From a virus, in IMG/VR virus record IMGVR_UViG_3300010149_000079, positions 1-31,242 of that record: a stretch of 31,242 bases of DNA. The stretch is one strand, 5' to 3'. Within the stretch, counting starts at the first letter, position 1. Every line of letters begins with the position of its first letter. The notes under the pieces were generated by a model. It had not been told where the DNA came from and searched no databases. It was given only the letters and a program-made list of their open reading frames with translations. The translations under genes were made by a program, and so were the position numbers. Below are positions 8,210 through 24,716 of this stretch, piece after piece.

Positions 8210-9325
8210 CTAAGACGCCGGAAGGAACAGCGCGGCAGAGTAAATGTTACCCATGCCAGCAGCTAGACTGAGGAAAGGCCCAGCCGGGACCTCTGCGCTT
8301 TCCGAAAGGAACACAGGGTCGTAGGCCGTACGGTTAAGTATTTTGGGCACGTAGTTACGCTTCATGTCGTCCAACAGTAAACCTGTTTCCAGCAGGCCGC
8401 TTGCTCCCATTGTATGCCCTACCAAGGGCTTGTATGAGGTCGCTATAAAGTCAGGACCTAGGGATCGCAATAAAGCCGTTCTTTCCGCAGCATTGTTTAC
8501 TGGCGTACCAGTGCCATGCGTCTTCACTAACTTTACACAATTTGGGGGCAGATTGGCTATATAGAGGGCACCTTCTATAGCTTTGCTGTACCCACTCCCA
8601 TCAGACCGTTGCCCCAGCGGGTTGGTGTTATCTTCGGCGGAACTATACGCCCCGAGGAACATAGCCGCAGGGTCAGCCATGTTGGGATGTTCTTTCTCAA
8701 AAACCATAACCGCTGCCCCCTGCCCAATATGAAACCCTTGGTTCCGCTCATCGAAAGCGGAAGGCTGCATGTCCTCCTCATCCTTGTACTGCAGGCTGGC
8801 TCCCGCCTCCCCAAAAAACTCTAAGACAAGATTGTTTACGCTGTCTTCTCCGGTAAACACTACAACCCGGTCAAACCCAAAGTTATTCATCAGGTTCTGC
8901 ATATCCATGAGGACTTTCAGGCTGGACGCACAGGCACTAGCATCCGTAGATACGTGATCGTGTACCCCAAACATGCCAGCTATGCGCCCTGCATAGATAT
9001 TAGATAGCACGATAAAAGGTACCTTTATCTTGTAGTGCAGTTGCGCAGAAGGGTCTTTGTCGTAGCGCCCATTGTTGCCCATCCATCCTTGATTACCTGC
9101 GGCAAACAGGAATCCGGTCTTACCCTTAACTGGATTGTCACGGACGTAATTAAGGAGATCTTCATCCAGAAGTCCCTCTAAAAGTTTATGAGGAGGGTAG
9201 GACATCCCACGTTTAGCCCGTTTGAAGGTCTTAGGGAGGATATGGGCGTGTTGAGGGTACGGAACGTCATCAATAAGGGTTTTTTCGGTAGTACTTGCGG
9301 TGCGGTAATGCGTTATATAGATCAC
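8210..9325 (-). CDS. Beta-ketoacyl-ACP synthase (KAS II/FabF-type condensing enzyme)
   Basis: The 371-residue product has the thiolase-fold signature of type II ketosynthases, which condense malonyl-ACP with an acyl chain. The nucleophile Cys132 lies in STDASACASS. The two catalytic His are His270 (KTHGTGTP) and His304 (KPLVGHTMGASG), with Lys299 five residues before the second His, the same Lys-His spacing as E. coli FabF. GFHIGQGAAVMVFE matches the conserved GF-x-GEGA block, and GMGNIYSAALF corresponds to the C-terminal glycine-rich loop. It is somewhat shorter than typical FabF (about 410 residues), mainly at the N-terminus. The GTG start overlaps the ACP stop (GTGA) and has GGAGG at 9333-9337, seven bases away. 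With all catalytic residues kept it is probably active. I would not choose between KAS I and KAS II types. Confidence 0.92.
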   Translation of the reverse strand: MIYITHYRTASTTEKTLIDDVPYPQHAHILPKTFKRAKRGMSYPPHKLLEGLLDEDLLNYVRDNPVKGKTGFLFAAGNQGWMGNNGRYDKDPSAQLHYKIKVPFIVLSNIYAGRIAGMFGVHDHVSTDASACASSLKVLMDMQNLMNNFGFDRVVVFTGEDSVNNLVLEFFGEAGASLQYKDEEDMQPSAFDERNQGFHIGQGAAVMVFEKEHPNMADPAAMFLGAYSSAEDNTNPLGQRSDGSGYSKAIEGALYIANLPPNCVKLVKTHGTGTPVNNAAERTALLRSLGPDFIATSYKPLVGHTMGASGLLETGLLLDDMKRNYVPKILNRTAYDPVFLSESAEVPAGPFLSLAAGMGNIYSAALFLPAS

Positions 9326-9624
9326 CCTAAATCCTCCAGTAACTCTTCTACGGACTCATAGGTGTCTTCAGGATCAACGGTTTTCTCCTTCAGCAGGTGA
9401 TCGTAAAGGTCCTGAACGGTCATACCTTTAGGTAATTCCTCATCACCATCCTCGGGTATGCCATAGGCTTCAGCTAGGACAAAGTACGTCATTGCAACGT
9501 CCAAGCTATCTAGGTTAAGCGTATCTTCATCTACTACATCGTTGAGTGCAGTTGCGGGTACATAATCGGAAGGTATGCTCTTCTGGGATAACGCAACAGC
9601 GTTAAAAAGCTTTAAAAAGTCCAA
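9322..9624 (-). CDS. Acyl carrier protein
   Basis: The 100-residue acidic product carries the 4'-phosphopantetheine attachment motif: Ser40 within LNLDSLDVAM, equivalent to the DSL motif of E. coli AcpP. Helix-II-like sequence follows, then AEAYGIPEDGDEELPKGMTV and QDLYDHLL, matching the typical ACP ending (TVxxxxxYI). An extra acidic tail of about 20 residues (DPEDTYESVEELLEDLG) makes it longer than housekeeping ACPs of about 78. The TTG start is supported by GAGGAG six bases upstream. It overlaps the ketosynthase by four bases, so the pair is translationally coupled. No phosphopantetheinyl transferase is encoded in the window, so the host enzyme would have to activate it. Confidence 0.9.
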   Translation of the reverse strand: MDFLKLFNAVALSQKSIPSDYVPATALNDVVDEDTLNLDSLDVAMTYFVLAEAYGIPEDGDEELPKGMTVQDLYDHLLKEKTVDPEDTYESVEELLEDLG

Positions 9625-15323: not shown

Positions 15324-18300
15324 TTAACTCTCCAACGCGGCAATTCTTGCCGTCAGCGATTCGATCAATACCTGCTGTTCTTGAATAGCCTTAACCAACA
15401 TAGGGACAAGGTTTCCTTTGGCAAGTTGCTGCGTGCCGTCAGGGTCTTCGCTCCAAATGTTGTGGCCGTCAGCAATCTCGGAATGCGCGTCAATCGCAGC
15501 CTTAACTTCTTGAGCTATAAATCCGTGATTTGTTTTCCCGAACCCCATGACAGGACTGTCGTCATCCGGGTCATATTGAGACAACGACGGATCGATTGCG
15601 TTTTTGGAATCCCACTTAAACGTCACCGGACGCAAATCGTTGATAAAAGACAATCCGGCAGTAGAGTCCGCAACTTCTGTCTTGAGCCTACTGTCTGAAG
15701 CCGCAGACCACGACTCATCCGACCCGTCGAGTGAAAGCGTCGCATTCCCGGCAGATGTCCCGATTCTTACCGTGTTATCCCCGCCGCCGACAATGCCGTA
15801 TCCGATGACAATCTGAAAATCAGAATCAGCCGCAGAGGTGTCCGTTCCATATCCAAGGCACAGGTTTTTTTGACCTGATTCAATGACATCTCCAGCGGCA
15901 TAGCCGACTAGCGTGTTTTGGTGCCCGTCTGGCTCGCTGTTAATGTTGATGCGTTGTCCGGCACCACCTCCAATGACGACGCAATTGTTAGCCACCGTCG
16001 CATTTTCAAGCGTTCCAAAACCTAGCCCCGTATTTGCAGTCCCGGTGGTCATGGACGCCATCGAGCGGTGCCCGAACGCACTGTTGTACGTGTCCGCATT
16101 CCCTGACGGGTTCATGGTGGTCAGAGCTTCGTAGCCTACGGCGGTGTTACGGTCGCCCTGCTGATTGGCATCCAGAGTCAGATACCCCACCGCGACATTC
16201 CTGTCTCCGGTGGTATTGTTCTGCATCGAAAAGCCGCCGACGGCGACATTGCCCGATCCCGCAGTAGTGTTTTGGAGTGCTGCAAACCCTAACGCTGTTG
16301 CATACGTCGCTTCAGTCGAATTGAGCATGGCATTCTTGCCAATTGCCGTATTGGAATGCCCAGTAGTAACTGCCCCGAGGGCATTGTCCCCGGCGCTTGT
16401 ATTGTTATCGCCAGTCACCGCGGAACCACTTGCTCCGCCCCCGGCCTGATAGCCAACCGCGACATTTGAATCGCCGCTTGTAATTTCTGCTCCCGAGAAA
16501 CTTCCTAAGAGAGTGTTTTTTACTCCTGTGAAATCGGTCCCTGCGCTTGCGTTTGTACCCGCCTTAAACCCAAGCCCCACGTTGTACATGTCGGTTTTTG
16601 AGGCAGGTTCCACATCACGCAATGCCTCATAGCCCACTGCCGTGTTGCGATCTCCGACAGTGCTTTCTGTGAGCGCCTTGTAACCATACGCGACGTTCAA
16701 ATCCCCGGTTGTCGTTTTTCCGAGAGCTTCAGCGCCCACTGCCGTGTTGTATCCAGACGTGGTGACGGCATCCAGTGCATTGACGCCTATGGCTACGTTG
16801 TAACTTGAACCTGTGTCAGTGGTTCCAGAAGGATCAGAACCAATCCAAATTGAACTGTTCTCTTTAAGGGCTGGGTCAAGGACGTTGAGTTCTGCTGCGG
16901 TTGATGTCACGGCGGTACTGCCAATAACTAATCCGCTTGCAGGAACAACAACTCTTGCTGCGCCTGCCAGAATAAGATCATCTGCGGACTCATCCCAGAG
17001 CATGTAAGCACTGGCGGTGGCCCCGAAGAACTTAACGTCGTAACCGGTGTCATCTACGCCGACCGTGACCGTGTTATCAATCTGGACAGCACCGTCTATA
17101 TCGACAGCATCTAGGTTGGTTGTTCCGTCTACGTCAATATTACCGCTTATGTCTAACTCAGTTGCGATAATTTTGTCATTGAATGTTGCAGCGCCTGCTG
17201 CCGACATATCAAGAGTAAGGGCGGTAATTGCAGACCCACCATCACTACCTTTAAAAACAATATCACCATCTGAAATACTTGAGTGAATGTTTAAATTATT
17301 GCTTGATAAATTAAATTTTCCGTACTCAGAACCTGAACCTTGAAGACTTATATCCCCACCGCCTACGTCCAGATTAATATCACCAGCAACATCTAGTGTA
17401 AGGTCACCAGAAGACAGATCAATTTCAGTACCGTCAATTGTAATGTTGTCTACAACTACACCCGCGTTTGCAGTAACTACACCACCAACAGCCAGTGTAG
17501 ACGCCATATCTACAGCACCATCGATGTCTACTACATCAAGATTAGCCGTACCGTCTACGTCTATATCACCAGATACATCCAAAGATCCTGCATCAAGTTC
17601 TCCGGTTAGTGTGATGTTTCGGAAACTTGCTACGTCTTTATTGGAATCTACTGTGACTACTTTACCGGCTACTACAGTCCCTACTGAGCCGCCAAGATCA
17701 ATAGCGTTAAGCTCTGCAGCGGTAGCTGTAACAGCCGTACTCCCGAGAACTAACTGCCCATCAGGGATGACAATACGTGCAGCCCCAGCAAGGATGAGGT
17801 CGTCCTCATCTTCGTCCCAGAGCATATAAGCACTAGCTGTAGCACCGAAAAACTTAACGTCGTAACCGGTATCATCAGCGCCGACCGTAACCGTGTTATC
17901 AATCTGGACAGCACCGTCAATATCTACGGCGTCGAGGTTGGTCGTACCGTCTACGTCAATATCACCAGATATATCTAGCGAGGCTGCGGTAAGCGCTCCG
18001 GTAAGCGTGACGTTCCGGAAGCTGGACGCATCTTTATTAGCATCCACCGTTACAACTTTGCTGGCGACTACAGTACCTACAGCAGCACCAGTGTCAGAGT
18101 AATTAAGCTCAGTCGCGGTAGCCGTTACACCGTCAAGGATATTTAGTTCAGCGGTTGTGCTGGTTACACCGTCAAGGATATTCAACTCAGCAGTTGTGCT
18201 GGTTACACCGTCAAGGATGTTCAACTCTGCGGCTGTCGAACTAACCGCCGTACTCCCAAGTACTAACTGCCCGTCAGGAATAACAATACGTGCCGCTCCT

Positions 18301-19664
18301 GCGAGGATGAGGTCGTCAACATCTTCATCCCAAAGCATGTAAGCACTAGCTGTAGCACCGAAGAATTTAACGTCATAGCCGGTGTCGTCTGCGCCTACTG
18401 TCACTGTGTTGTCAATTTGGACAGCGCCATCAATGTCTACGGCGTCAAGGTTGGTCGTACCGTCTATGTCAATATCACCAGATATATCTAATGAAGCCCC
18501 GGTCAATACCCCCGCTACGGTAAGCGTAGATGCCATATCTACGGCACCGTCTATATCGACAACATCTAGGTTGGTCGTACCGTCTACATCGATATTCCCA
18601 GAAATATCTAACGATGCCGCTACAACTTCCCCAGCAAACGTAGCCTGAGTCGTTCCAGTTGCGATAGACATAACTGTCGCATCGGCGTCGTTCTTGATCG
18701 TGACATCAGTGCTACTACCTTGACCGGTAATAATGATGCCTTCCGCGCTGGTGTAGCCGATTGCAGCGTCGTCCCCGGCAGCGGTATCCCCGGTAGCCTG
18801 TAGCGTGCCTGCAGTAATAATGTCCCCGACAACTGTTACATTCGTTGTCCCTGTAGGTATCTCAAGAACATCGGCATCAGCGTCGTTCTTGATCGTCACA
18901 TCATTTGTACTACCTTGACCCGTAAGGATCAGACCTTCTGCGCTGGTGTAGCCGATAGCTGCATCATCCCCGGCAGCGGTATCGCCGGTAGCCTGTAGAG
19001 TACCTGCAGCGATGATGTCTCCTGTAACCGTTACATTTGTCGTCCCGGTTGGGATCTCAAGAACATCAGCGTCAGCATCGTTCTTGATCGTGACATCGTT
19101 TGTACTTCCCTGCCCCGTAAGGATCAAACCTTCCGCGCTGGTGTAACCCATTGCAGCGTTGTCACCAGCCGCAGTATCCCCAGTCGCCTCAACGGTTAGG
19201 CCAGTAATAACTCCAGTAGCAGTGACGGCCCCACTAACATCTAAAGCCGTAAGGTTGGTAACTGCTTCATTTACGTTAGTACCGTCACAGAAAACAATAG
19301 AAGATTTTCCGTTGGGTATGGCGATACCAGTACCACTAGCTGTCTTAACAGTAACCTGTTGCCCAGAACCGTTCTTACAAACGTATACCTTGGAGGCAGC
19401 GGGGCAGATAACAGTCGCAGCGCCAGACAGATCCGTAGATGTATCCGTAAATTCAAGGATAGCCGCTCTTGCTTCAGCCGTAGTACCGTCTGCGGTAGTC
19501 AAGGTATGCGAGTTACCGGACCACGAGTTAATAACCGAACGTCCTGCAACGGCCTCTTCGACCATAGACGTTATATTGTTATTAACAACGTCGCCCCATG
19601 TCCCACTTAATTCACCTTGAACCGGAAGCGCGAGTTTAAGTATCGATGTGTATTGTGTAGCCAT
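15324..19664 (-). CDS. Large tail fibre (1446 aa) with C-terminal S74 chaperone domain
   Basis: Residues 1-45 (YTSILKLALPVQGELSGTWG) look like an attachment domain. A 65-residue beta-repeat region follows (about residues 155-340). Three copies of a module containing DIDGAVQIDNTVTVG, DTGYDVKFFGATASAYMLWD and DDLILAGAARIVIPDGQLVLG lie near residues 410-500, 580-670 and 860-930. Residues about 930-1310 carry NTAVGYEAL-type repeats like the beta-roll head of trimeric adhesins. The C-terminus is an intramolecular chaperone (peptidase S74), with the Ser1323-Lys1328 pair of SDSRLK followed by FIAQEVKAAID. In this family the domain trimerises the fibre and then cuts itself off before that Ser, here releasing about 124 residues. 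The protein is a receptor-binding fibre or spike. Start: ATG 19664, AAAGG six bases upstream. Confidence 0.9.
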   Translation of the reverse strand: MATQYTSILKLALPVQGELSGTWGDVVNNNITSMVEEAVAGRSVINSWSGNSHTLTTADGTTAEARAAILEFTDTSTDLSGAATVICPAASKVYVCKNGSGQQVTVKTASGTGIAIPNGKSSIVFCDGTNVNEAVTNLTALDVSGAVTATGVITGLTVEATGDTAAGDNAAMGYTSAEGLILTGQGSTNDVTIKNDADADVLEIPTGTTNVTVTGDIIAAGTLQATGDTAAGDDAAIGYTSAEGLILTGQGSTNDVTIKNDADADVLEIPTGTTNVTVVGDIITAGTLQATGDTAAGDDAAIGYTSAEGIIITGQGSSTDVTIKNDADATVMSIATGTTQATFAGEVVAASLDISGNIDVDGTTNLDVVDIDGAVDMASTLTVAGVLTGASLDISGDIDIDGTTNLDAVDIDGAVQIDNTVTVGADDTGYDVKFFGATASAYMLWDEDVDDLILAGAARIVIPDGQLVLGSTAVSSTAAELNILDGVTSTTAELNILDGVTSTTAELNILDGVTATATELNYSDTGAAVGTVVASKVVTVDANKDASSFRNVTLTGALTAASLDISGDIDVDGTTNLDAVDIDGAVQIDNTVTVGADDTGYDVKFFGATASAYMLWDEDEDDLILAGAARIVIPDGQLVLGSTAVTATAAELNAIDLGGSVGTVVAGKVVTVDSNKDVASFRNITLTGELDAGSLDVSGDIDVDGTANLDVVDIDGAVDMASTLAVGGVVTANAGVVVDNITIDGTEIDLSSGDLTLDVAGDINLDVGGGDISLQGSGSEYGKFNLSSNNLNIHSSISDGDIVFKGSDGGSAITALTLDMSAAGAATFNDKIIATELDISGNIDVDGTTNLDAVDIDGAVQIDNTVTVGVDDTGYDVKFFGATASAYMLWDESADDLILAGAARVVVPASGLVIGSTAVTSTAAELNVLDPALKENSSIWIGSDPSGTTDTGSSYNVAIGVNALDAVTTSGYNTAVGAEALGKTTTGDLNVAYGYKALTESTVGDRNTAVGYEALRDVEPASKTDMYNVGLGFKAGTNASAGTDFTGVKNTLLGSFSGAEITSGDSNVAVGYQAGGGASGSAVTGDNNTSAGDNALGAVTTGHSNTAIGKNAMLNSTEATYATALGFAALQNTTAGSGNVAVGGFSMQNNTTGDRNVAVGYLTLDANQQGDRNTAVGYEALTTMNPSGNADTYNSAFGHRSMASMTTGTANTGLGFGTLENATVANNCVVIGGGAGQRININSEPDGHQNTLVGYAAGDVIESGQKNLCLGYGTDTSAADSDFQIVIGYGIVGGGDNTVRIGTSAGNATLSLDGSDESWSAASDSRLKTEVADSTAGLSFINDLRPVTFKWDSKNAIDPSLSQYDPDDDSPVMGFGKTNHGFIAQEVKAAIDAHSEIADGHNIWSEDPDGTQQLAKGNLVPMLVKAIQEQQVLIESLTARIAALES
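18105..18240. repeat. 39-bp tandem repeats (TAAELNILDGVTS) in the fibre gene
   Basis: ACACCGTCAAGGAT recurs at 18127, 18166 and 18205, every 39 bases, encoding TAAELNILDGVTS in tandem followed by a related TATELN unit. The near identity at DNA level suggests recent copy-number change in the fibre shaft. Confidence 0.9.
18650..19200. repeat. Three 195-bp tandem repeats in the fibre gene
   Basis: CGCTGGTGTA recurs at 18746, 18941 and 19136, exactly 195 bases apart. Each copy encodes a 65-residue unit with ATGDTAAGDDAAIGYTSAEG and DVTIKNDADADVLEIPTGTT. The last unit in the protein is the most divergent. This is a fibre-shaft beta repeat. Confidence 0.9.
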
Positions 19665-20636: not shown

Positions 20637-21266
20637 CTACAAGCTCGCTACTCTGAATTGCCCAGATCTATAAGTATCCTCACGGAGTCTACCGTCCCCA
20701 AGATTACGCAGCAGTTCAATAGACTGCACGTAGAGCTTTTCATACAACGCAATAACGTCCGGTTCACCTTTCATAAACCGTATAGCCTGTATTAACGCCC
20801 CGTTCAGGAGCGCCGAATCAAACTCGTTGCCTAGCCAAGTACTACCTGCACTGACTATAGAAGTCGGGTAATACCCATAATGAAGTTCTACTGTGTAACC
20901 GCTATTGGGAGTGGGGCCTACAATGAACGTAGTATCGTCAAAGTACGCATAGTGCTTGGGTTGCCCTGTGGAAGCGGGGGTGGGATACGCATCGCGAATA
21001 AAGTTAACGTCCTTATTCAGAAGATAACTGTAGGCCCCACTGCTGTTAAGTACTGCTAGGCTATAGCTGTACAAAAAGTCCGAAGGTACGGATAGATACT
21101 TATTACCTGAGGTTAACGTTCCCGTTACATTTTTACGTAACGCAGGGATCTGAACAGAATTATAAATAAGCTGCTCAGCCTGTTTGACGAACATAGCCAA
21201 TTGGTCAGCCGTAAAGGATGACTCACATACATCTTCGATGTTCGTTGTAAGCTCAGTGTAATTCAT
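20637..21266 (-). CDS. Head-tail adaptor-like protein
   Basis: The product has 209 residues. A helical N-terminus (DVCESSFTADQLAMFVKQAE) is followed by beta segments (KYLSVPSDFLYSYSLAVLNS, TTFIVGPTPNSGYTVELHYG) and a helical C-terminus with ALIQAIRFMKGEPDVIALYE. This order matches phage adaptor proteins that dock on the portal, of the type described in phage SU10; I recall the YP-x-T-P and W-L beta-hairpin features from memory. It lies three genes after the gp4-like adaptor, so the neck may contain two adaptor rings, or this may contact the tail hub. The ATG is two bases after the 39-residue gene. Confidence 0.78.
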   Translation of the reverse strand: MNYTELTTNIEDVCESSFTADQLAMFVKQAEQLIYNSVQIPALRKNVTGTLTSGNKYLSVPSDFLYSYSLAVLNSSGAYSYLLNKDVNFIRDAYPTPASTGQPKHYAYFDDTTFIVGPTPNSGYTVELHYGYYPTSIVSAGSTWLGNEFDSALLNGALIQAIRFMKGEPDVIALYEKLYVQSIELLRNLGDGRLREDTYRSGQFRVASL

Positions 21267-21268
21267 AA

Positions 21269-21388
21269 CTAGCCCATAGGACCGCGTGCCATAGTGCCTT
21301 TAGTAGCCGCTCCGGTACCCCGTATTTTAATCCCAGAGGTTTTAACACCCTTCCCGGCTTTTTTCGTCTTACCTTTCGACTTCTTCAT
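21269..21388 (-). CDS. 39-residue lysine-rich phage protein
   Basis: This short gene encodes MKKSKGKTKKAGKGVKTSGI followed by KIRGTGAATKGTMARGPMG. The TSGI-IRGTGAATKGxxARGPM pattern is one I remember as conserved in marine phages, which makes it a real gene despite its size. A strong AGGAGG at 21394-21399, overlapping the previous stop, lies five bases before the ATG. It is very basic and probably binds DNA or fills a charge-complementary site in the virion. No domain is known to me. Confidence 0.85.
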   Translation of the reverse strand: MKKSKGKTKKAGKGVKTSGIKIRGTGAATKGTMARGPMG

Positions 21389-21393
21389 AACCA

Positions 21394-21399
21394 CCTCCT
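21394..21399 (-). promoter_or_regulatory. Strong Shine-Dalgarno (AGGAGG) for the 39-residue gene
   Basis: AGGAGG followed by TGGTT and ATG 21388. It supports the very short gene and overlaps the TAG of the zinc-ribbon gene. Confidence 0.8.
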
Positions 21400-21751
21400 A
21401 GGTAGTTACCACTGTTACTGTTCCTACAGCCCCGGAGGCTACTAGGTTATTCGGTACAAGCCCAAATGGGTCCCGTCCACCTCCCACAGGAGCCCAACCC
21501 CACTGTATATCCCGACTCGGCTCTAACTCCGCACTATCCGGGCGGGGGTCTCGTAACGCCTGTGGATCATCTACCGGGAACTCCCCCAGACGTAACTGAG
21601 GATGGTCCTTGTTCCAACATTCAGGACAGGCTTTAACGTTAGTGTCCCTACCCTTCTCTACAAGTGATTTTAACTTGTGGAGTCTATACTGGAACCCGCA
21701 AACGTCACATATGCCTAGGGCCTTTTTGCCTGATGCAAAACGTGCAGCCAC
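21398..21751 (-). CDS. Zinc-ribbon virion-module protein
   Basis: I chose GTG 21751 with TAGGA six bases upstream, giving 117 residues; an in-frame TTG at 21778 would overlap the adaptor gene by 26 bases. Two CX2C knuckles are visible (ICDVCGF at residues 15-18 and ACPECW at 42-45) around a basic helix RLHKLKSLVEKG. HPQLRLGEFPVDDPQALRDP and a Pro/Gly-rich tail follow. I recall the 'CDRCGFQY ... CPEC ... DPQALRxPRPD' pattern from marine phage genomes. Zinc binding is expected from the cysteines; the role beside the neck genes is unknown. Confidence 0.82.
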   Translation of the reverse strand: MAARFASGKKALGICDVCGFQYRLHKLKSLVEKGRDTNVKACPECWNKDHPQLRLGEFPVDDPQALRDPRPDSAELEPSRDIQWGWAPVGGGRDPFGLVPNNLVASGAVGTVTVVTT

Positions 21752-21752
21752 T

Positions 21753-22439
21753 TCAGATCCTAGTCGCCCGTGGTACAAATCTAGCAGGGGTTTTTTCTCG
21801 GTCCTCTGCAGCAGCTAACGAAAACTGTTCGTCATAGACCTGTTTAAGAAAAGGAAGTCTTTCCGCGAGTTCAGGGTCCTTCATCGCAATATTGTACGCA
21901 AGCCCTGCTACCAGACAGGGGATAAACCGGAAGTTCATATCTGCGGTTTCAACACCATCACCTGCGTCTTGGATACGGCGCATACGCCAGTACCGAAATT
22001 TGTAATCCCCGCTATCGGGCACAGGCCAGACATTTATCTTAGGGTTATCCCGAAGCCGCTCTATCCATACCTGAATAGGACGCCCCTTGGATAATTTGTT
22101 CGGGATAGACGCATAGGTGCTGACACTGATACGAGGGATTGTAAGGTCAGATTGTGTAGATACATTACCGTCTCCGGTACGTATAACCTGCTCCAGCAAA
22201 TCAATAGTATCCGCAGGGAGGTCGTACTCAGACGTACCCTCCACAAGATCTATAGACCCCTCGTCAATCGTCCACAGGTTTATCCCACGGTTCTGCCACT
22301 CAATCGTAAGCAGATTCATGGACCGGCGAGCCGTCCTAAGGTCATACCCAGACCGCATCTCACGGCCTGCGCGTTCCCAAGCCTCTTCCGCGATCTCAGT
22401 AAAATCTAAACTGAATGCTGTCGTACCGGATGTAGCCAT
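21753..22439 (-). CDS. P22 gp4-like head-tail adaptor
   Basis: The product has 228 residues. The N-terminal helices (FTEIAEEAWERAGREMRSG, TARRSMNLLTIEWQNRGINL) and SEYDLPADTIDLLEQVIRTG match the tail accessory factor family of P22 gp4, which binds the bottom of the portal ring after packaging. GRPIQVWIERLRDNPKINVW and PDSGDYKFRYWRMRRIQDAG continue the pattern. P22 gp4 is about 166 residues; this version has a longer helical C-terminus (LAYNIAMKDPELAERLPFLK). It overlaps the previous gene by one base and fits with the gp10-like nozzle and P22-type portal. Confidence 0.85.
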   Translation of the reverse strand: MATSGTTAFSLDFTEIAEEAWERAGREMRSGYDLRTARRSMNLLTIEWQNRGINLWTIDEGSIDLVEGTSEYDLPADTIDLLEQVIRTGDGNVSTQSDLTIPRISVSTYASIPNKLSKGRPIQVWIERLRDNPKINVWPVPDSGDYKFRYWRMRRIQDAGDGVETADMNFRFIPCLVAGLAYNIAMKDPELAERLPFLKQVYDEQFSLAAAEDREKTPARFVPRATRI

Positions 22440-22768
22440 TAGATATACAACGTCTTTTTACGTCGCCCTGCTTTTACTGCTCCACACCCACGGGCTATAG
22501 AGCGTTTACCTTTGATTAAGCCTCCGCTACGCAACTTTACTGTCGCAGCGGGGGTATTCTTAACCACTGTCTTACCTTTCCCTCCCTCCTGCTTTTTCTT
22601 TTTAGCAGTAGCGGATAACTGTGTCTTCGACAAACTTTTGGCCTTACTCCTAGGCAAACAGCGGTCAGGGTTTTTCGTATCCTTGGAAGTACCGCACGGG
22701 CCTTTAATCTTCCCATCAGTACCGATACGGACCCAATCCTGTTCCCGCCATTTACGTAACTGGCCCAC
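22439..22768 (-). CDS. Basic DUF5872-like phage protein
   Basis: The product has 109 residues from GTG 22768, which overlaps the TAG of the 51-residue gene by one base. It reads WREQDWVRIGTDGKIKGPCG, then TKNPDRCLPRSKAKSLSKTQ, a Lys-rich stretch, and KLRSGGLIKGKRSIARGCGA. The W-x-x-IG ... PCG ... P-x-C-x-P-x-x-KA arrangement resembles small basic proteins I remember under DUF5872; the assignment is uncertain. Two paired cysteines (GPCG and RCLP) could bind metal. It is one of five basic proteins clustered here, perhaps nucleic-acid binding or capsid associated. Confidence 0.8.
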   Translation of the reverse strand: MGQLRKWREQDWVRIGTDGKIKGPCGTSKDTKNPDRCLPRSKAKSLSKTQLSATAKKKKQEGGKGKTVVKNTPAATVKLRSGGLIKGKRSIARGCGAVKAGRRKKTLYI

Positions 22769-22923
22769 TAGCGTGCCTTCTTACTTTTGCCATACTTAGG
22801 GTCTTTGCAGTATTTCGACGCTGCCATGTTGGCGTACGCTGACGGATACGTGTCAAAGGTTCGCTTAGCCCAAGCCTTACCCTTGGCACATATCTTACCG
22901 CCGCTTTTGTAGTATCTACGCAT
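22768..22923 (-). CDS. 51-residue basic phage protein
   Basis: This short gene starts at ATG 22923 (TGATG overlap with the previous stop) and ends at TAG 22768. It encodes MRRYYKSGGKICAKGKAWAK, then RTFDTYPSAYANMAASKYCK and DPKYGKSKKAR. The GGKIC-x-KGKAWAKRTFDTYPSAYANM-x-ASKYCKDP pattern is one I remember as conserved in uncultured phages, so it is a real gene. It is strongly basic with two cysteines and no known fold. It is coupled by overlaps on both sides to two other basic genes. Confidence 0.87.
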   Translation of the reverse strand: MRRYYKSGGKICAKGKAWAKRTFDTYPSAYANMAASKYCKDPKYGKSKKAR

Positions 22924-23711
22924 CAACGCATCTTAGCGGGACGAACGCCTTTTCGGGCTATCCCTGCACCACGAACTTTGCCCCCGGCCTTATAGCCTTT
23001 GGTCTTCATCTTCCCACCGGCCTTATAGCCTTTGGTCTTCATCTTCCCACCGGCCATATAGCCTTTGGTCTTCATCATGCCGCCACCGCGCATTTTCTTC
23101 GCAGGCCCAAAATCAGCCTTTGTGGGACGCCTGCCGAGTTCATCGTACTTATTTAAGTACGCCGTCAGCCCCACCCCGGTCGCCGCTAACTGCTCTCTCG
23201 TAACGTTGGCCTTTCCATCTTCAGAACCTTTCTTACCTACGTTACGATCCGCCATACCGGTGCCCTTACCGGTAACACGCGGTTTCTTTTTAGGCAAGGA
23301 TGGCGGTGTTTCGGGTTTTGCAATCATAGATTTCTTGGATTGCAAATCCTGCATAGCAGCCTGTCTTTTGGCACCTGCCGCTCTTGACTGCGCGGGGGTT
23401 TTACCTCTTAGGGTCTCGGTTCGCGGACTAACATCCTCGCGTTGTGCCCTAGGGACGGGCTTAGGCTTAGACTTAGGCTTTGCTGGAGGAACCTCTGGAC
23501 CTTTGAAAGCTAATCTAGCCCCTTGAGAGGGAGGTGTCGATGTTCTTGCAGGTGCTTTTGGAGCAGGAGGTTTCGGCTTTGCTGGGGGAACCTCTGGACC
23601 TTTGAAAGCTAATCTAGCCCCTTGAGAAGGGGGTTTCGATGCAGAAGCCGCTTTACGTTTGGCTCTGGCCTCTCTGCGCCTTTTAAGTACAGAAGCAGGT
23701 AGTTTAGGCAT
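22923..23711 (-). CDS. Lys/Pro-rich repetitive protein
   Basis: The product has 262 residues and is very basic and mostly disordered. The N-terminal part has two 33-residue repeats (PPSQGARLAFKGPEVPPAKP). The middle has a short ordered block with NVTREQLAATGVGLTAYLNK, then YDELGRRPTKADFG. The C-terminus has three to four copies of KMKTKGYKAGG, a unit I recall from many marine phage proteins. The short ordered block may be the functional core. Probable roles are nucleic-acid binding, or packaging and ejection with the genome; neither is shown. The ATG is two bases after the previous stop. Confidence 0.83.
   Translation of the reverse strand: MPKLPASVLKRRREARAKRKAASASKPPSQGARLAFKGPEVPPAKPKPPAPKAPARTSTPPSQGARLAFKGPEVPPAKPKSKPKPVPRAQREDVSPRTETLRGKTPAQSRAAGAKRQAAMQDLQSKKSMIAKPETPPSLPKKKPRVTGKGTGMADRNVGKKGSEDGKANVTREQLAATGVGLTAYLNKYDELGRRPTKADFGPAKKMRGGGMMKTKGYMAGGKMKTKGYKAGGKMKTKGYKAGGKVRGAGIARKGVRPAKMR
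22985..23075. repeat. 33-bp tandem repeats (KMKTKGYKAGG)
   Basis: TATAGCCTTTGGTCTTCATC recurs at 22991, 23024 and 23057, every 33 bases, encoding the 11-residue KMKTKGYKAGG unit on the minus strand. Confidence 0.9.
23478..23640. repeat. 99-bp direct repeat in the Lys/Pro-rich gene
   Basis: TGCTGG and the following bases recur at 23481 and 23580, 99 bases apart and nearly identical over about 58 bases. They encode two PPSQGARLAFKGPEVPPAKP units. Confidence 0.9.
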
Positions 23712-23713
23712 GA

Positions 23714-24394
23714 CTAAGAGTCCTCATCGTTATACAGGTTGTCAAACACCTGATTAATATCTAACGTATAGTCCAGATCGGACTTACTGTAATGGATATG
23801 TTGGGACGGCTTGAAATCCGGTGCACCTTCCCCGGTTTCAAACCATGCAGGATGAGTCACTCTCACCCGATTATTCGGCAGGGCAACTATGTTGCCCGTC
23901 CACTCCCCTGCGTCTAGCAACTCAAGTACATGCGACTGCTTATGTTGTGCAGGGTCGTCCGCTATCTCGTTCTCTGTGTAATCCACAGTAAAGTAATACT
24001 TAGCGGGGTACATCTCACCGTCTATTTTGGCGAGCCAAGGTGTGGGGGTAGCACGGTCCAAGGTATACACACTATGCGTCCGCGAGGAACAATCCCACGG
24101 CTGAGCCGCCCAAACAGGCATAGGTTCGGGCCAATCCTCTAACGGGGTGTCCCCAACTAACGCTGTAATAGGCATTCTGGCCCACATAGCTCCACCGTGT
24201 ACATTAACCTCGTCCTCATCGTAAGACTCAGCTCCAGTAAAAATGAGCTGAAAACTTAAACACCTACAAGGTATCGTTGTCACCGCAATAGCCATAGCGT
24301 GTATAAATTCGCCATGATATTTCAGGTGATTATGTGTGTACTCCTTCCTTACCCAACATTTGAAATAAGGTATGTTGCTCTGTAGGTAAGCCAC
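23714..24394 (-). CDS. Conserved hypothetical phage protein
   Basis: The product has 226 residues from GTG 24394 with AGGAG four to five bases upstream. It has beta-rich stretches (IPCRCLSFQLIFTGAESYDE, GGAMWARMPITALVGDTPLE), a Trp-rich block (DWPEPMPVWAAQPWDCSS), then AKYYFTVDYTENEIADDPAQ and RVRVTHPAWFETGEGAPDF. I recall similar proteins in marine phages with no assigned function. There is no transmembrane segment or catalytic signature I can name. Its position among basic proteins and structural genes suggests a virion or assembly role. Confidence 0.8.
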   Translation of the reverse strand: MAYLQSNIPYFKCWVRKEYTHNHLKYHGEFIHAMAIAVTTIPCRCLSFQLIFTGAESYDEDEVNVHGGAMWARMPITALVGDTPLEDWPEPMPVWAAQPWDCSSRTHSVYTLDRATPTPWLAKIDGEMYPAKYYFTVDYTENEIADDPAQHKQSHVLELLDAGEWTGNIVALPNNRVRVTHPAWFETGEGAPDFKPSQHIHYSKSDLDYTLDINQVFDNLYNDEDS

Positions 24395-24401
24395 CCGTCT
24401 C

Positions 24402-24716
24402 CTAGCACTTCCAGCGCCGTCTGGCCTGCCGTATCCTAGAATTAGGATCTTTAGCGGCTTTAGGGAACTTCTTCATCTGCCCTGCAGATCTGGCACAAAA
24501 CGACTTACGTCTCTTGGCGTCCTTACTCCCCTTCTTAACTTTACCCGTTACTGCTGTCTGTAACTTACTACCGGGATTCTTACGCCTATACGCAGCTACT
24601 CCCGCTTTGGTCATACCAGCACCGGCCTTCGTGGGCCTAAAGTTACGCTTATTGCGCTTAGGCATACCCCCACCAGAAAAGGTGGGGCACGCAGGTTTTT
24701 TGTAGTAATTACGCAT
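24402..24716 (-). CDS. DUF6321-like basic protein
   Basis: The product has 104 residues with a very basic core: TKAGVAAYRRKNPGSKLQTA, VTGKVKKGSKDAKRRKSFCA and RSAGQMKKFPKAAKDPNSRI. The 'AGVxAYRRxNPGSKLQTAVTxK ... KRRKSFCAR' pattern matches a family I remember as DUF6321. Its charge points to nucleic-acid binding or electrostatic packing inside the head; no function is established to my knowledge. The ATG (24716) overlaps the preceding structural gene by eight bases. Confidence 0.85.
   Translation of the reverse strand: MRNYYKKPACPTFSGGGMPKRNKRNFRPTKAGAGMTKAGVAAYRRKNPGSKLQTAVTGKVKKGSKDAKRRKSFCARSAGQMKKFPKAAKDPNSRIRQARRRWKC

Follow-up and report, generated by a model that had tools for sequence, protein, structure and literature searches.

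Small basic proteins clustered at the neck genes of a podophage and their module relatives within longer proteins of T4-type phages

The basic gene cluster and its module families

A 31,242-base virus record of IMG/VR (IMGVR_UViG_3300010149_000079), which may be a fragment and is called the window below, encodes a cluster of five small, strongly basic proteins next to its neck genes (Table 1). Three of them are referred to here as modules: C is the DUF6321 protein (104 amino acids, aa), B is the protein with 'YPSAYAN' (52 aa), and A is the protein with 'W..W...C..C.P' (109 aa). All cluster genes and the listed structural genes of the window are on the minus strand, with portal, GroES-like and major-head matches upstream of the cluster and two SU10_adaptor-like genes within and after it. 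The window is related to pelagiphage HTVC023P, in which the order of the GroES, capsid and C genes is similar; when the window's C was used as a tblastn query, the C gene of HTVC023P was the top match among phage records (73% over the full length).

A preliminary description of this DNA had listed five Lys/Arg-rich products lying almost together, two of them with conserved family patterns and one with 33-bp repeats. All five open reading frames (ORFs) were confirmed on the minus strand, with isoelectric points (pI) of 10.2-12.0 compared to a median of 4.9 over 37 hand-listed window genes. The five fall within 8 consecutive genes of these 37 (permutation p ~0.0025, for a group picked after it had been seen), but the cluster is interrupted by an acidic 226-aa PHROG_3704 protein, one SU10_adaptor-like protein and a 126-aa Cys protein. 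Three of the genes are chained by short overlaps, 4 nucleotides (nt) between the 262-aa gene and B and 1 nt between B and A. The 33-bp repeats were found in three copies, at spacings of 33 and 33, inside the 262-aa gene (22978-23084), which also contains a 70-nt repeat pair at 23473 and 23572. The PHROG_3704 protein matches 108 phage records, and its names conflict, being 'ferredoxin' in some records and 'PurM' in others.

Table 1. Genes of the basic cluster and the neck genes beside it.
Feature	Position	Strand	Evidence
Module C, DUF6321 protein, 104 aa, pI 11.8, ends ..RRRWKC	24402..24716	-	PF19846, phrog_10346
Acidic 226-aa PHROG_3704 protein between C and the 262-aa gene	23714..24394	-	PHROG match
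262-aa basic protein, pI 11.4, 33-bp repeats, C-terminal tag KVRGAGIARKGVRPAKMR	22923..23711	-	ORF list, repeats
Module B, 'C.KGK..AKR.FDTYPSAYANMAASK.C', 52 aa (51 from ATG one codon in), pI 10.2	22768..22926	-	phrog_27331 3.3e-22
Module A, 'W..W..IG...PCG..C.P', 109 aa, pI 11.0, GTG start, C-terminal tag ARGCGAVKAGRRKKTLYI	22439..22768	-	phrog_23735 2.2e-27
SU10_adaptor-like neck gene inside the cluster	21753..22439	-	PF24175 7.7e-12
39-aa basic protein, pI 12.0, tag KIRGTGAATKGTMARGPMG	21269..21388	-	ORF list; same tag class in other loci
Second SU10_adaptor-like neck gene, after the 39-aa gene	20637..21266	-	PF24175 1.2e-20

The family patterns exist, but two was an undercount: A, B and C all belong to PHROG families, those of A and B being without function annotation, and C also has a Pfam family. 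C matched PF19846 at 4e-13 with 50.2 bits, over the gathering threshold of 28.5, and is thus a member of DUF6321; its match to phrog_10346 was at 3.9e-25. The 39-aa protein had no Pfam or PHROG family. Neither had the 262-aa protein, for which tblastn at E<=0.1 gave no match in phage records, although the low-complexity filter of BLAST may hide some. A literature search on the name DUF6321 found no paper, and none on this module set was found by title or abstract.

Employing single-sequence tblastn against 50,697 phage records, we found C in 332, A in 1 and B in 6; profiles found A and B more widely. Among 17 named C-bearing phages, hand-picked from search rows and scanned as whole records, A and B occurred in the same 8. 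Viral contigs were scanned for the best 80 loci each from 600 stretches, so that co-occurrence counts describe best matches and are not a census. Of the best 80 C-relative loci, 52 had A and B, 27 had C alone and 1 had A and C; where at least 4 kb was available on both sides (17 of these loci), A and B lay within 4 kb in 15. Among the matches listed, 75 of 76 further loci found via B had A, and 73 of 76 found via A had B. A and B form a linked pair. When they were separate ORFs, they shared a strand and the order B-A in 111/111 dereplicated loci, with a median gap of 78 nt. C was also present in 83 of these loci, always on the same strand (83/83), and no C was found within the sequenced stretch of the remaining 28. 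Conservation of gene order, which the preliminary description had named as a check, holds for B and A; C comes before the pair in 57 loci and after it in 26. In bacterial or archaeal genome contigs, by title mostly metagenome or single-cell assemblies and not established as phage contigs, there were 72 loci with C, 29 of them also with A and B, 2 with B and 1 with A.

DUF5872 (PF19197) matched 9/50 A rows (best 1e-13) and 13/37 B rows (best 2.5e-6), and fused proteins matched it in two stretches, below cut-off; because of these matches, DUF5872 resembles a B-A pair joined in a single chain. For the A and B proteins of the window there was no DUF5872 match, with 0 families at E up to 1. One member of DUF5872 is listed for the algal virus CpV-BQ1, as a row in a gene table (PMC12085832). 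Other small basic ORFs accompany the modules. A protein with 'LKGNQKK.D.NKDGKIS..DF', resembling an EF-hand loop by eye, lies by A and B in P-SCSP2 and HTVC023P (L009 3171-3296; L003 11121-11486), and recurrent ORFs with 'SLYRNINKRKKAGTSR' and 'LYANIHAKRKRI..GSGEKMRK.GAKGAPT' adjoin C (L006 3245-3376; L014 1325-1465; L008 4186-4362; L007 3819-3968).

In the AlphaFold model of A, residues 1-60 form a compact core of a helix, three strands and two helices, in blocks with a mean predicted local distance difference test (pLDDT) score of 77-90; the remainder, mostly below 60, is a low-confidence tail that ends in the tag described below. This predicted core weakens the idea of A as a pure protamine tail. 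The C model has four helices in its conserved part. Invariant positions in the alignments include W12, C25 and C37 of A and C74, W102 and C104 of C. In B, SAY is retained but the cysteines are not; since several B rows contain no Cys at all, a conserved Cys pair could not be upheld as a feature of every module. A Foldseek search of BFVD with the A model returned phage relatives, including DUF6321, DUF5872 and one S-SCSM1 'Virion protein'.

Fused modules and a protease-like motif in T4-type phages

In T4-type phages, the modules lie inside longer, often fused proteins. Across loci that were not dereplicated, fused ORFs combined A+B+C in 26 cases, A+B in 47, B+C in 5 and A+C in 1. DUF6321 forms the extreme C-terminus in the fused examples printed, with one extra residue in DSL-LC02, and a further motif, D ('ACWKGY...GMK'), recurs in these longer proteins.

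In the cited account of T4, gp21 cuts head proteins after L/I-x-E (PMC9026906). When 100 dereplicated longer ORFs were examined, a looser form of this prohead-protease rule, [ILVM]-x-E, stood at a constant distance ahead of A in 43/60, of B in 43/68 and of D in 19/21, compared to a background elsewhere in those ORFs of 737/38274 (1.9%). A recount of the register with more loci gave 42/59, 43/68 and 19/21, and the strict form [LI]xE was in register in 33/59, 36/68 and 14/21 (background, 385/38202). After removal of identical upstream hexamers, 42/53 (A), 29/40 (B) and 18/20 (D) were still in register; at 11 other offsets, there were at most 6, 6 and 2 motifs, respectively. VAEG linkers were observed 25 times, compared to 3.4 [ILV]AEG expected from composition. 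Of 100 podophage A ORFs, 77 have their nearest Met 3 residues ahead of the anchor, and T4-type forms carry E at -2; a cut protein and a separate gene product would therefore begin at nearly the same residue. In S-SCSM1 gene 29, cuts are predicted after VSE, MTE, FNE and VSE, and an in silico cut of this protein yielded basic pieces with A (+15 net), B (+7) and D (+7) and acidic linkers.

Peptidase_S77 was found in 11/20 T4-type or long-protein records (our own grouping, in some of which the B or A ORF is short) but in 0/24 separate-gene records, and the S78 protease in 0/44 records. The window had no S77 or S78 match, a result to be read with its possible incompleteness and with the silence of the controls in the window S77 scan, although the same model matched 11/44 records elsewhere.

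On the most likely reading of these data, A, B and C are mini-domains. T4-type marine phages make them as parts of longer, often fused proteins, and the prohead protease there probably releases each one by a cut after the [ILVM]-x-E that directly precedes it. In the separate-gene records examined, this podophage among them, no protease of this kind was detectable and the modules come from individual genes that overlap or lie close together; for module A, the start Met of the separate gene lies within two residues of the predicted cut.

Virion proteomes, gene neighbourhoods and alternative readings

The preliminary description proposed that the basic proteins might neutralise or bind packaged DNA, be ejected with it, or bind host DNA early in infection. 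Packaging in the virion is supported, though only through relatives of the modules: of the three virion proteomes examined, those of S-CREM2 and S-SCSM1 are reported to contain them by mass spectrometry and that of S-SZBM1 is not. For S-CREM2, Table 3 of the report lists 52 proteins of CsCl-purified particles, among them the C-bearing ORF137 (4 unique peptides, 4.1%) and ORF160, which spans the A and B matches (7 unique peptides, 13.1%) (PMC10665884); the two terminase genes that flank ORF137 are absent from this table. S-SCSM1 gene 29 carries A, B and C, lies between TerS and TerL, and is labeled 'virion protein' in its record, whose terminases and several predicted baseplate genes have no such label; 45 proteins of the CsCl-purified particles are reported as detected by mass spectrometry (PMC9602691). 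Because relatives from larger cyanobacterial phages are fused with likely cutting sites at their module borders and are reported in purified particles, the cluster proteins of this marine phage are probably packed in the head with the DNA. We consider it likely that the cluster encodes small basic internal head proteins, capsid cargo that would associate with DNA and could be ejected with it, cut from longer proteins in T4-type phages and made from separate genes in podophages.

The same proteomes could be read in another way: the products may bind nucleic acid in the cytoplasm late in infection, as helpers of packaging or as regulators of DNA or RNA; they would act while DNA is being packaged or earlier and only adhere to purified particles. 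Strong basicity fits this, as does the position of C between TerS and TerL in T4-type cyanophages (modules lie between the terminase genes in DSL-LC02 and S-SCSM1) and near terL in S-TIP28 and Venkman. Probable passengers, a Cas9-like nuclease for example, appear in the S-CREM2 list, in which the coverage of ORF137 is low; the C-bearing gene 192 of S-SZBM1, a genome with no A or B match, is missing from the 30-protein virion table (PMC9146016). However, adherence accounts neither for the protease-like motif, which precedes A, B and D at a constant distance, nor for the lack of terminases in the S-CREM2 table, where their neighbours appear. We regard this explanation as rather unlikely.

Gene context also speaks for internal head proteins: in several phages, C lies in the scaffold/capsid gap, in the capsid/tail-tube gap, directly upstream of terL or in the TerS/TerL gap. 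Where capsid, scaffold or tail-tube genes adjoin, and in the window where SU10_adaptor-like genes are interleaved, the proteins could also be minor structural components, placed in the neck, the portal or the shell interior, which help to assemble the head or to retain DNA and are not delivered to the host. The cryo-electron microscopy account of P-SCSP1u names only capsid, portal, adaptor, nozzle and fibre, with no decoration protein on the capsid, and C is known from the relative P-SCSP1d; such a structure would argue against fixed parts and is silent on disordered cargo. A role of this kind appears quite unlikely. An association of C with endonuclease VII genes, seen in Venkman and RN05-S, was dropped, as other contexts do not repeat the pairing.

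Host-takeover proteins made in the cell, with virion detection due to contamination, would suit families without known function and detections that come from outside the podophages. This we consider very improbable, since late structural genes surround them in the window and in most of the named phages examined, and the virion lists of S-CREM2 and S-SCSM1 both include relatives.

Several further points weigh against internal head proteins. The virion evidence rests on S-CREM2 and S-SCSM1, with no podophage proteome among the three examined, and by our count the S-SCSM1 record has 48 'virion protein' labels compared to 45 proteins in the paper, so that the label is not exact proof. The register is missed in 17/60 (A), 25/68 (B) and 2/21 (D) cases; the D of S-SCSM1 gene 29, which the pattern misses, was recognised by eye and is preceded by F-N-E. 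The in silico cut of the same protein also splits C at a chance site into an 18-residue piece and a 63-residue piece (net +14), a weakness of the simple rule. Nine of the 20 T4-type records have no S77; the same nine also lack Gp23 over the cut-off and a T4 portal and may therefore be fragments. C occurs with neither A nor B in the other 9 of the 17 named phages. In some phages it is remote from head genes: C closes the late region in HTVC010P and HTVC203P, has helicases nearby in LMM01 and stands at a contig end in a Vibrio phage. T4-GC119, the cluster name given to the C protein of P-HM1, is described in another report as a hypothetical protein belonging to a mobile gene cassette. Against the PDB, Foldseek gave 5 matches for the A model (best E 4.0, none at E <= 0.001) and 0 at E <= 10 for the C model, which is weak evidence because the mean pLDDT of the models is 69.2. 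Profiles of A, B and C had no match below E 0.3 to solved structures, and phmmer gave only chance-level matches for C.

A shared C-terminal tag and comparison with internal head proteins

Three different basic proteins of the window share a C-terminal tag, 'RGxG[AIC]A' (21272-21328, 22442-22495 and 22926-22979, minus strand), at a nearly fixed distance from the stop. Based on a pattern written after seeing examples, 'RGxG' plus [AICVSG][AV] ended 9-20 residues before the stop in 76/84 distinct instances, compared to 7.4 expected for random positions. This count is limited to ORFs of at least 100 aa from the window and from loci L001-L223, mostly of podophage type and including five T4-type named records; it is preferred because 52% of positions in the wider ORF set are near the C-terminus anyway. 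In L224-L400, where every ORF from 40 aa upwards was counted, the placement was found in 0/11 instances. The tag is carried by the A protein, by the 262-aa and 39-aa types and by other proteins; 116 carriers fell into up to 30 groups by N-terminal part, probably over-split, and the 262-aa protein grouped with 28 other tagged ORFs by the part before the tag. Ten tagged or tag-type proteins had 0 PHROG matches. That the tag is a capsid-loading signal is a guess.

A wider picture joins these observations: marine podophages and T4-type phages might share an exchangeable kit of capsid-cargo mini-domains, which T4-type phages would load as protease-diced long proteins and podophages lacking that protease as tag-marked separate proteins, the tag serving as the loading signal. 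The invariant Cys pairs of A and C might form protamine-like cross-links within the particle that come apart inside the cell. We hold this combined view to be doubtful. T4 has an N-terminal capsid targeting sequence, and the podophage tag is proposed as its counterpart.

Elsewhere on the minus strand of the window, a beta-ketoacyl synthase-like protein, unusual for a phage, is encoded at 8210-9325 (PF02801 7.9e-16, PF00109 1.4e-10), directly preceded by a very acidic 100-aa protein (9322-9624) that resembles an acyl carrier protein by eye, with no such Pfam match. A 1446-aa repetitive protein (15324-19664) with a C-terminal Peptidase_S74 chaperone (3.5e-10) is probably a tail fibre.

If the cluster does encode internal head proteins, DUF6321 (332 of 50,697 phage records), a Pfam family without assigned function to which module C belongs, and the linked A and B families would gain a function class, and one set of head-cargo modules would be used as protease-cut long proteins and as separate genes in unrelated phage types. 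Small basic ORFs by marine phage head genes, annotated as hypothetical, would then pose a testable question of what the virion carries in with its DNA.

The T4 internal proteins (IPs) are separate proteins, whereas T4-type marine forms carry several modules per protein. In their small size (39 to 262 aa) and strong basicity, the five cluster proteins are like T4-type internal head proteins. The podophage forms differ from T4 IPs in having no detectable S77 or S78 protease alongside. According to the cited account, IPI, IPII and IPIII (and Alt) are small basic head proteins whose precursors are cut by gp21, many of them being ejected, and about 300 copies of each basic IP are suggested per head (PMC9026906). 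The inner-body and ejection proteins of phiKZ and SPN3US are reported to be head proteins likewise matured by cutting after Glu, in much larger phages.

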